A stretch of DNA of 64,000 bases from Oscillospiraceae bacterium (lineage in GTDB: Bacteria; Bacillota; Clostridia; Oscillospirales; Ruminococcaceae): NCBI GenBank assembly GCA_022787085.1, contig JALFVE010000049.1, positions 55,037 to 119,036 on the forward strand, written 5' to 3'. Shown here piece by piece: positions 50,594-55,153 of the stretch (positions are counted from its first letter, which is position 1; each line of letters begins with the position of its first letter). The notes beneath the pieces were generated by a model. That model made no database searches. It was given only the letters and a program-made list of their open reading frames with translations, and was not told where the DNA came from. The position numbers were made by a program, and so were the translations under genes.

Positions 50594-51805
50594 GTGCTTG
50601 TTTTTCCGAATTACAAGAAATGCTCGGTCAATGTTATCTCATCTATAAAAAAATATTATCGTATCCCGACCAGCGTTCCCTCCATCGAAAAGCTGGACAA
50701 CGAGCTGAACAGAATGTTTCAGAATGTGGTTCTTATCGTTCTTTGCGGGGCGGGGGAGAATATGCTCAGAGCTGCTTTGAAGCCTTCGGATATCCTGCTG
50801 AAAAAAATGACGGAGCAGCTGACTTCTGTTTGTCCCTCATATCCTGCGGCGGCAGAGGTAAGCTCTGTTTCGGGGCTTTATCCCAATGAGCACGGCAGGC
50901 TTGGACAGACTATGTTTTTCAAGGAATTCTGCCGTACAGTGGAGCTTTCCTCCAATCTTGATCCCTATTCCAATCAGCCTGTTTCGGTGGCGAATGCGGC
51001 GGATTTTATTCTGCCTTATGAAAATATTTTCGGTGAAATTGCAGGCTCGATCTTAGGCGGTGTTCAGCCCTTTTCTATTGCTCAGCCCGGCATCAGGATC
51101 GCCGAAAACCAAAGCTATCACAAGGTTGCTGACAATCCTAAGCGTATGTTTGAGCTTATTAAAAAGATTGCTGAGACCGATCAGAATACATTCACCTATG
51201 TTCAGTGGAATGCTCCTCAGGAAGCTGCCATGAAATTCGGCTGCGAAAGCAATGAGACAAAAAGCATTATCAGGGATATCAACGACACTGTGAACGGGTT
51301 GTCGAAATCCATGACGGACACGCTTATTATCGTGACCTCCACTCACGGAATGAAGGACATCTCCTCGGAGATAATGCTTAATCTGAAATACGAGCTTTGC
51401 GATTGTCTGCTTATGCCCCCCGTATTCGGCGGACGTGCTGTGAATTTTTATGTTAAGGCGGACTGCCGCTCGGATTTTGAAAAGCTTTTCGCAAGAGACC
51501 TTTCCGAGGATTTCCATCTTATGAGCAGAGCCGATATTTTTAAAAGAGAGCTGTTCGGCTGCGGAAAAACCAACAAGAAAATTTATGATTTTATCGGGGA
51601 TTACTGTGCTTTTGCCATCGGAGACAAGTCACTGACCTTCAGAGCCTTGAATCAGAAGCATCGTTCTCCCGATAAGGCAGGCTCGGGAGGAATCACCTCC
51701 GACGAAATGTGTCTCCCTCTTTGTGTGATATCCACAAAGCAGACCTCGGGCAGGAAGCGCCCGTTTCCCGAGAACATTACCCCGAAATCCTTCACTGATT
51801 ATTGA
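50594..51805 (+). CDS. Alkaline phosphatase/nucleotide pyrophosphatase-superfamily protein, probably catalytically degenerate
   Basis: Scaffold motifs [57 protein letters not shown] resemble the PF01663-type clostridial family, but with metal-ligand substitutions. Confidence 0.75.
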
Positions 51806-51821: not shown

Positions 51822-52871
51822 TTGCTGGAACAAAGCGATATGGAGCTTGATTTTGAGGAGCGCATGGTTTCGCCCGAATCCATGCCCTCCGATGATGATA
51901 TAGATTATTCCCTCAGACCGAAAGCTTTGAATGAATATATCGGTCAGGACAAGGTAAAGGAGAATCTGGCGGTTTACATCAAGGCAGCTAAGCAGAGAAA
52001 CGAATCTCTCGATCACGTTCTGCTTTATGGTCCTCCGGGGCTTGGAAAAACCACTCTGTCTACCATTATTGCTCATGAAATGGGTGTGAATATCAGGACT
52101 ACCTCGGGTCCTGCTATTGAAAAGCCCGGCGATCTGGCGGCTTTGCTTACAAATCTTTCCGAGGGTGATGTGCTGTTTATTGATGAGATCCACAGGCTTT
52201 CACGTTCCATTGAGGAGATACTTTATCCTGCAATGGAGGACTTTGCTCTGGATATCATTGTGGGCAAGGGTCCTGCTGCACGTTCTTTGAAGGTTGAGCT
52301 GCACAGATTTACTCTCGTGGGTGCCACCACCCGTGCGGGACAGCTTACTGCCCCCTTGAGAGACAGATTCGGTATTATTCAGCGGCTTGAGCTTTATTCT
52401 CATGAGCAGCTTTCAGATATTATAATGCGAAGTGCGGTCATTTTAGGAATTGCCTGCGACAATGACGGCGCTGCAGAGATAGCCAAACGTTCACGGGGAA
52501 CTCCCCGTATTGCAAACAGGCTCTTAAAACGGGTCAGGGATTTTGCCGACGTTATCGGCAAGGGCAGGATAAATGGCGAGATCGCCGCCATTGCTCTCGA
52601 CCGAATGGAGATAGATTCGCTGGGGCTTGACAGCCTTGACAAGCGTTTTCTGAATATGCTTATCAAGGGCTACGGCGGAGGCCCTGCGGGACTTGAGACC
52701 CTTGCTTCCGCTATCGGTGAGGAAGCTGTTACTCTTGAGGACGTTTGCGAGCCGTATCTTATGCAGCTGGGATTTATTTCCCGTACACCGAGAGGTCGGT
52801 GCGCTACCGCTCTTGCCTATAAGCATCTCGGAATAACAGCGCCCGATAAACAGACCTCTTTATTTGAATAA
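51822..52871 (+). CDS. ruvB: Holliday junction branch migration ATPase RuvB
   Basis: [66 protein letters not shown]. Confidence 0.97.
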
Positions 52872-52894: not shown

Positions 52895-54232
52895 ATGAGC
52901 ATTTCACTTAGTTCGGAGGGGAGCTTCTGCGCGCCTGCAAAGGATATCTCCTGCGAAGCGGCACTTGTTTTCGGATATGCCGCTGCTGTGGTCTTATGCA
53001 GAAAAAGCGGCGGAAATATTTTTGTTGGAAGGGATACAAGACGTTCATCAGATGCTTTTGAAGCTGCACTTACGGCGGGAATATTGTCGGCGGGGGCTGA
53101 TGTGACCTCTCTCGGCATTATCCCCGAGCCAGCGGGTGCCTATCTTGTTAAAAAGCTTGGTGCGGACGGATTTATTATGATTGGCGACCCCGATCGGGAG
53201 GCGGCTCACAGCGGCTTTTTCTTTTGCGATTCGGGAGGACTCAGGATATCCTCTGATATTGCGGAAAAAATTACGGCAGAACTTACCGTTAAAACAGTTC
53301 GCTGTTCTGAACGTTTCGGCAGAAAAACGGTTTATGAAAACGCTGTTTCGGAATATGCTGACTTCATTCTAAGAAATTCCGACACGGAGCTTTCTGGAAT
53401 GACAATTGCGGCAGACTGTGCAAACGGTGCGGTCGCCCTCGCTGCCGAGGAGCTTTTTTCCTCTCTCGGGGCGAAGGTTTATCTGCTTAGCTGCGAGCCT
53501 GACGGGGATAATATCAACAGCTCCTGCGGGCTGTCCCATATGGAAGCTCTTGCGGATTTTGTCAGGGAGAAAAAATGCGATATGGGCATATCCTTTGACG
53601 GCTTCGGCTCAAAATGCCTTGCTGTGGACGAAAATGGAATAACTGCTGACGGTGAGAAGCTTTTAGCTGTTTTCGCCAAGGATATGACGGAGAGAAGGCT
53701 GCTTGCAAATAATTCTGTGGTGGTTTCCGCTTCGGCAAATCTGGGATTTTCCGTTTTTGCCGAAAAGAATAATATAAAGCCCGTTTCCACAAAGGCGGGG
53801 GGAAGCTACATCCTTGAAAAAATGCTTGCAGGGGGCTTTTCTCTCGGAGGAGAGCAGTCGGGCAGGTTAATTTTCGGAGATATGAACTGCGAAAGCGATG
53901 GTCTGCTTACGGCTGTAAGGCTTATCTCTGCTGTAAAGCGCTCGGGTAAAACGCTCGGTGAGCTTTGCTCGGTCATGGAAAGATTCCCTCAGGTGGCAAT
54001 TAATGTTAAAATATCCGAAGGCTGGCGGGAGGCTTGGAAAAATATTCCTGAGCTGGAGGAATTTATCGAGAAAAAGGAAAAAGAGCTCGGCGGAATGGGC
54101 AGGATAGTTGTTCGAGAAAGCCCTGCTGAGCCTGTTATTAAGGTGACGGTTGAGGGCAGGCGATTTGACGCAGTTAACACAATGGCTGTTGAGATTGCTG
54201 AAAAGGTCAGAAGCCTCTGCGCCGCTATTTGA
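52895..54232 (+). CDS. Phosphohexomutase (GlmM/PGM)-family protein, probably catalytically degenerate
   Basis: FVGRDTRRSSDAFEAALTAGILSAGADVTSLGIIPEPAGAYLV, GGEQSGRLIFGDMNCESDGLLTAVRL; catalytic Ser and DGDxDR loops not conserved. Confidence 0.8.
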   Translation: MSISLSSEGSFCAPAKDISCEAALVFGYAAAVVLCRKSGGNIFVGRDTRRSSDAFEAALTAGILSAGADVTSLGIIPEPAGAYLVKKLGADGFIMIGDPDREAAHSGFFFCDSGGLRISSDIAEKITAELTVKTVRCSERFGRKTVYENAVSEYADFILRNSDTELSGMTIAADCANGAVALAAEELFSSLGAKVYLLSCEPDGDNINSSCGLSHMEALADFVREKKCDMGISFDGFGSKCLAVDENGITADGEKLLAVFAKDMTERRLLANNSVVVSASANLGFSVFAEKNNIKPVSTKAGGSYILEKMLAGGFSLGGEQSGRLIFGDMNCESDGLLTAVRLISAVKRSGKTLGELCSVMERFPQVAINVKISEGWREAWKNIPELEEFIEKKEKELGGMGRIVVRESPAEPVIKVTVEGRRFDAVNTMAVEIAEKVRSLCAAI

Positions 54233-54253: not shown

Positions 54254-55153
54254 ATGAGAATTGCTGACAGATGGAAGGATTATAGGCTGATCGACAGCTC
54301 ATGCGCTGAAAAGCTGGAGTGCTGGGGAAAATATAGCCTTGTTCGCCCCGACCCTCAGGTGATCTGGAAAACCGATAAAAAATCTCCCCTCTGGGACAAG
54401 GCTGACGGGCATTATTTTCGTTCAGATAAGGGCGGGGGACAATGGAGCTTTGCCAAAAAGCTTCCCGACAGCTGGCAGATCGCTTATGAACTGAGCATCG
54501 GGGAGAAGCTAATTTTCAATATCCGTCCCACGGGCTTCAAGCATACGGGATTATTTCCCGAGCAGGCTGTTAACTGGGATTTTACATCGGAGCTTATCAG
54601 AAACAGGATAAGCGAGGGCAGAGAGGTCAATGTGCTGAATCTATTTGCATATACAGGCGGAGCTACTCTTGCCTGCGCTGCTGCTGGAGCTTCCGTATGT
54701 CATGTGGACGCTTCAAAGGGAATGGTTCAGTGGGCAAGAGACAATGCCGCTTCCTCGGGGCTTTCAGACAGACCTGTAAGGTGGATAGTGGACGACTGCG
54801 AGAAGTTCGTTGCAAGAGAAATAAAGCGGGGAAGAAAATATGATGCTGTTATCATGGACCCTCCTTCCTACGGCAGAGGACCTAATCAGGAGGTCTGGAA
54901 GCTGGAGGACTGCATTTATGACCTTGTAAAGCTTTGCACGGGAGTGCTGAGCGATGCCCCGCTGTTTTTCCTGTTGAACAGCTATACTACGGGACTTTCT
55001 CCTTCGGTCATGGCTTATATTATCGGAGAGACGGTGGGAGAGAAATTCAAAGGCAGCGTTACCGCTGACGAGATCGGTCTCCCGGTGGAAACAGGAAAAT
55101 ATGCTCTTCCCTGCGGCTCAACAGCGATGTTTATTTCAGAGTCGGCAAAATAA
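54254..55153 (+). CDS. Class I SAM-dependent rRNA methyltransferase (RlmI/K-like)
   Basis: NLFAYTGGATLACAAAGASVCHVDASKGMVQWARDNA, DAVIMDPPSYGRGPNQEVWKLE. Confidence 0.9.
   Translation: MRIADRWKDYRLIDSSCAEKLECWGKYSLVRPDPQVIWKTDKKSPLWDKADGHYFRSDKGGGQWSFAKKLPDSWQIAYELSIGEKLIFNIRPTGFKHTGLFPEQAVNWDFTSELIRNRISEGREVNVLNLFAYTGGATLACAAAGASVCHVDASKGMVQWARDNAASSGLSDRPVRWIVDDCEKFVAREIKRGRKYDAVIMDPPSYGRGPNQEVWKLEDCIYDLVKLCTGVLSDAPLFFLLNSYTTGLSPSVMAYIIGETVGEKFKGSVTADEIGLPVETGKYALPCGSTAMFISESAK

Follow-up and report, generated by a model that had tools for sequence, protein, structure and literature searches.

The phosphoglucosamine mutase GlmM is essential, and a further, non-enzymatic role is suspected for it in Gram-positive cells. 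Studying that role is difficult, since cells deprived of GlmM also cease to make cell wall. In Bacillus subtilis, GlmM cannot be replaced by a PgcA variant whose phosphoglucosamine mutase activity is raised; the authors of that study favour a second essential function for GlmM (PMC6797236). One non-catalytic, protein-binding role is established in B. subtilis and Staphylococcus aureus, where GlmM binds and inhibits the c-di-AMP cyclase CdaA/DacA (PMC8573169, PMC6368335; structure 9g69). In both species a single GlmM does both jobs. Among vertebrate phosphohexomutases, PGM5 (aciculin) is an inactive paralogue with a non-metabolic role that exists beside the active enzyme (PMC7761743). PGM5 belongs with eukaryotic PGM1 and not with GlmM; most of its catalytic and binding residues are kept and substrate is still bound (PMC7761743). 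No description of a GlmM pseudoenzyme was found among the open-access journal papers searched.

The window analysed here, a stretch of 64,000 nucleotides, contains an open reading frame that probably encodes such a protein, namely a displaced GlmM (GlmM-A) that has become a dead pseudoenzyme and is held under purifying selection for a non-catalytic task, most likely the binding of a protein. As judged from sequence, the pattern would be that of an enzyme whose reaction has been taken over by another copy and which is retained for a different task. Like PGM5, the protein would be an inactive phosphohexomutase beside an active one, and a non-metabolic role is proposed for it as well; unlike GlmM-A, PGM5 shows no repeated inactivation at one locus. 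With the CdaA-inhibiting GlmM proteins it would share a non-catalytic role in protein binding, with the difference that catalysis here appears to have moved to a second, canonical copy, GlmM-B.

The profiles PF02878, PF02879, PF02880 and PF00408 match the open reading frame in this order, each above its cut-off in a Pfam profile search. The best curated model, TIGR01455 (bacterial GlmM), covers the protein end to end (residues 16-439) with a score of 371.1 bits against a cut-off of 447.55 bits. Its nearest solved structures are those of GlmM from S. aureus, B. subtilis and B. anthracis, at about 35% identity, and an AF2 model built from an alignment of eight sequences (pLDDT 85) finds its best structural matches among GlmM structures (TM about 0.9, and 0.92 for B. 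subtilis GlmM). In descent, locus, four-domain organization and overall fold the protein is like GlmM (TIGR01455; 6gyz, 7ojr, 3pdk), from which it departs in its score below the family cut-off and in the replacement of the catalytic Ser, the second and third Mg ligands, the His, the Lys, GDR, the SGH His and SGT (Table 1).

Table 1. Features of the GlmM-A locus, in positions of the window
Feature	Position	Strand	Basis
ruvB, upstream neighbour, conserved at canonical and inactivated loci	51822..52871	+	
GlmM-A pseudoenzyme gene (probable), ATG start, 445 aa	52895..54232	+	open frame; profile matches; alignments; AF2 model
N-terminal substrate loop LSSEGSFC (LFGTDGxRG in canonical relatives; TDGxR replaced by SEGxF)	52907..52930	+	alignments
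Phosphoserine loop IGDPDRE (canonical ISASHNP/S)	53180..53200	+	alignments
SGFF at the former NGIK motif, Lys replaced by Phe109	53210..53221	+	alignments
Mg loop FDGFGSK (canonical FDGDADR), with the first Asp retained, the second and third Asp lost and Lys in place of Arg	53594..53614	+	alignments
VGDR substrate loop, replaced by AGGS	53795..53806	+	alignments
Sugar loop GGEQSGR (canonical GGEQSGH), kept except for His replaced by Arg324	53846..53866	+	alignments
WKN motif of domain IV, Trp381 to Asn383	54035..54043	+	alignment of inactivated and canonical A copies
Phosphate loop RESPAEP (canonical RESGTEP; SGT lost)	54113..54133	+	alignments
SAM-dependent methyltransferase gene, downstream neighbour, conserved at canonical and inactivated loci	54254..55153	+	

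In ungapped alignments to GlmM structures and to relatives, the column of the catalytic serine holds Pro99 (codon CCC at 53189-53191), flanked by Asp98 at position -1 and Asp100 at position +1. The preliminary description of this gene had read the loop with a shift of one residue and had placed an aspartate at the phosphoserine position; its suggestion that this aspartate might mimic phosphoserine falls away, the residue being a proline. The three motif replacements on which it relied, IGDPDRE, FDGFGSK and RESPAEP, are real, the last lying one base away from the position first given, and the GGEQSG loop that it called intact is indeed present, but the histidine that follows has gone. That histidine, TDGxR, the NGIK lysine and VGDR are losses beyond those described earlier. 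Three of the 11 key catalytic or ligand-binding residues are left, and the clade of the window's genome retains GGEQSG and the DTR arginine. Taken together with the canonical GlmM encoded elsewhere in the genome, these replacements support the earlier view that the protein is not a normal mutase, and mutase activity is presumably absent from it.

The canonical glmM, for which the preliminary description had proposed to search the complete genome, was found in GlmM-B, a protein of 447 aa that scores 549.9 bits and is about 33% identical to the window protein. The possibility that the window gene is the sole GlmM of its genome is ruled out by this intact copy. Four phosphohexomutase loci, the window gene included, were recovered from the genome by Pfam search, the third encoding a PgcA-type phosphoglucomutase of 571 aa. 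The fourth encodes a second dead relative of 403 aa (L070:5654-6862, + strand, contig C51) and adjoins nadB. Orthologues of this protein of about 400 aa occur in 11 genomes of the genus (L067-L077), some of which have an intact GlmM-A; they are without the catalytic Ser or the metal loop, evolve with a dN/dS of 0.07-0.13, and have a predicted fold that still matches phosphohexomutases (TM 0.6-0.7).

Intact GlmM-A proteins of the genus are encoded at the same locus as the window protein and are about 46-53% (roughly 50%) identical to it. Around the intact genes the order is ruvC-ruvA-ruvB-A-methyltransferase-ecfA1-ecfA2-ecfT-truA, and the order ruvB-A-methyltransferase is common to genomes with canonical and with inactivated copies; the window open reading frame is the ancestral GlmM of its lineage, still in place. 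Between ruvA and ruvB, a PF01663 gene (type I phosphodiesterase/nucleotide pyrophosphatase-like; 50594-51805, + strand) is present in the window's clade and in G004 and G006, and is absent from this position in G008 and G013.

Inactivated copies of GlmM-A occur in at least 24 genomes of gut bacteria from seven genera of one family, a lower bound that comes from a non-random sample; 47 chosen genomes were screened across the family, and the genomes are mostly drafts. Ten of the carriers belong to the window's genus, four each to g47 and g50, three to g237, and one each to g225, g235 and g203. All inactivated copies with known flanks adjoin ruvB or the methyltransferase gene, and their recurrence at the same locus in 24 genomes rules out a sequencing artefact or a chimera. 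The third Mg-binding Asp is lost in each of the 21 tabulated inactivated copies, whereas all 17 canonical A copies and all six GlmM-B proteins compared keep it, as they keep their catalytic residues. Since inactivated copies occupy one locus in 24 genomes and the canonical sequences used for comparison keep their catalytic residues, the pattern of inactivation lies far beyond chance. The first Mg Asp is retained in 19 of the 21 copies. Decay is graded across the genera, from nine of the 11 key residues kept (G367) down to two, and the replacement residues at the active site differ between inactivated lineages. Common to the inactivated copies are the lost active site and the retained overall fold; ligand binding is not retained throughout. 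On an eight-gene species tree a single inactivation for all ten carriers of the genus is rejected (AU p = 0.0005), and one clade uniting the window's clade with G004 and G006 is not rejected (AU p = 0.21). Inactivation of GlmM-A had several independent origins.

GlmM-B is present in 20 of the 24 genomes with an inactivated A, and was not seen in genomes of the genus that have an intact A. It was not found in G003, a fragmented draft with an inactivated A. It was also not detected in the three near-complete g237 genomes (L160, L161, L162), which have an inactivated GlmM-A and a PgcA-like mutase; a side activity of PgcA (PMC6797236) is a possible route to GlcN-1-P in these bacteria. Both A and B are apparently intact in G264 and G174. 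Genomes with GlmM-B and no copy of A (G284, G423, G425, G447 and G449) exist as well, so that the role of A would be dispensable in some lineages. In a tree of the B proteins, that of the window's genome joins one from another genus before the B proteins of G013 and G010; because of this grouping, B must have entered or been retained more than once, and it has at least two sources within the window's genus. The neighbours of GlmM-B vary between genomes and give no hint of function. By parsimony, GlmM-B would have arrived before A was inactivated.

Between copies that share an inactivation, dN/dS amounts to 0.131 (0.090-0.184) for G009/G018, 0.065 (0.033-0.112) for G004/G006 and 0.247 (0.166-0.353) for G000/G003 (bootstrap intervals in brackets); saturated pairs, those with dS above 1, were left out of the argument. 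As an internal control, GlmM-B gives 0.039 and 0.058 for the first two pairs at similar dS, and the inactivated copies evolve about 3-4 times faster than GlmM-B. Because the frames are open and dN/dS is 0.07-0.25 between copies that were already inactivated, protein-level selection continues, although selection against misfolding alone could also produce low dN/dS values. A recent pseudogene is ruled out by dN/dS and the open frames. Canonical pairs are most conserved in domain I. In inactivated pairs this domain is the least conserved, and constraint has shifted to domains III and IV, with domain IV the most conserved. Positions invariant in canonical copies are kept less often in active-site motifs (mean 0.54) than elsewhere (0.70; Mann-Whitney p = 0.0009), a difference that may be inflated because a low GlmM score was among the grounds on which the sequences were chosen. 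All 21 inactivated copies have Trp381 of domain IV, as against about 65% of canonical A copies; the residue may owe its retention to shared ancestry.

These observations are consistent with a course of events in which a canonical GlmM-B took over phosphoglucosamine mutation from GlmM-A, whereupon GlmM-A at the ancestral locus would have become catalytically dead with its four-domain GlmM fold kept. Purifying selection would then maintain GlmM-A for a task of the ancestral enzyme that needs no catalysis. This task would most likely be the binding of a partner protein, GlmM-A serving as a regulator or scaffold in the supply of cell-wall precursors or in signalling at the envelope; that inactivated GlmM-A has such a protein-binding role is our conjecture. 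The chances appear evenly balanced for a wider proposition, in which a conserved function of GlmM needs no catalysis, can be separated from mutase activity, and has repeatedly been continued in this bacterial family by a displaced and inactivated enzyme, the window protein being a dedicated regulator or scaffold without sugar-phosphate binding. The two roles of GlmM appear to have been separated several times in this family, and since the separation seems to be natural, the pseudoenzyme would offer a clean handle on the second role. For annotation the locus calls for caution, as some two dozen dead proteins would be named GlmM if homology were the sole criterion.

Other readings of the inactivated copies have to be weighed against this one. 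The faster evolution relative to GlmM-B, the graded decay and the complete loss of A from some genomes would all be expected of a functionless relic that decays slowly while its place in a co-transcribed gene cluster keeps the frame open. Such a relic seems improbable, however, given dN/dS values of 0.065-0.25 with upper 95% bounds of 0.35 or less for pairs sharing an inactivation, the lack of internal stops in every inactivated copy found, and the concentration of losses at the active site. That the protein remains a catalyst, working by another mechanism or on another substrate, is very hard to credit: the retained fold and the first Mg Asp speak for it, but a nucleophile in the Ser column, a complete metal loop and a phosphate loop are all missing, and the new residues vary between lineages. 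The preliminary description had favoured a sugar-phosphate sensor with a retained sugar loop, that is, a ligand-binding pseudoenzyme reporting hexosamine phosphate levels. Herring PGM5, an inactive relative, can indeed still bind substrate (PMC7761743), and GGEQSG and the DTR arginine survive in the window's clade. The sensor is nevertheless weakly supported at best and in our view doubtful, because most ligand contacts of the window protein (the phosphate loop, the NGIK Lys, GDR and the SGH His) have gone and the remaining loop is often lost in independently inactivated relatives, where it reads, e.g., GGSPTGH or GADHCGH. A non-catalytic subunit that regulates GlmM-B in mixed dimers would fit the dimerization of GlmM through domain I (PMC8573169) and the presence of GlmM-B in nearly all carriers of an inactivated A. 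Yet A shares only about 33% identity with B, conservation within the inactivated copies is lowest in domain I, and the three g237 genomes have an inactivated A without GlmM-B, all of which makes this arrangement improbable as well.

The retention of GlmM-A for protein binding has as a special case that the retained job is the inhibition of CdaA, catalysis having passed to GlmM-B. The binding of CdaA by GlmM in other bacteria, the presence of CdaA in 18 of 20 genomes of the genus and an alteration of CdaA itself in the window's clade (RHR to RHK) are in line with this, and residues of the known contact were looked for as support. They are not conserved: the window protein has Val, Asn and Ser where B. 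subtilis GlmM makes contact through Asp151, Glu154 and Asp195, and the position of Arg126 of B. subtilis CdaA is Ser in the CdaA of the window's genome and Thr in that of a relative with canonical A. Moreover, the surface known to contact CdaA belongs to domain II, but the strongest constraint lies in domains III and IV. Since the specific contact residues are not conserved, CdaA is no more than a candidate partner, and its inhibition by GlmM-A is unlikely. The change from RHR to RHK occurs in six genomes of the window's clade (L078, L055, L079, L080, L083 and L084); in the CdaA sequences read from relatives that do not belong to this clade, the motif is RHR. In G007 and G006, CdaA (L081:2608-4068 and L082:674-2071) has two DAC domains in tandem; in the second, DGA is changed to QQA or SQA and RHR to RHK, and this is probably a pseudo-cyclase domain fused to the cyclase.
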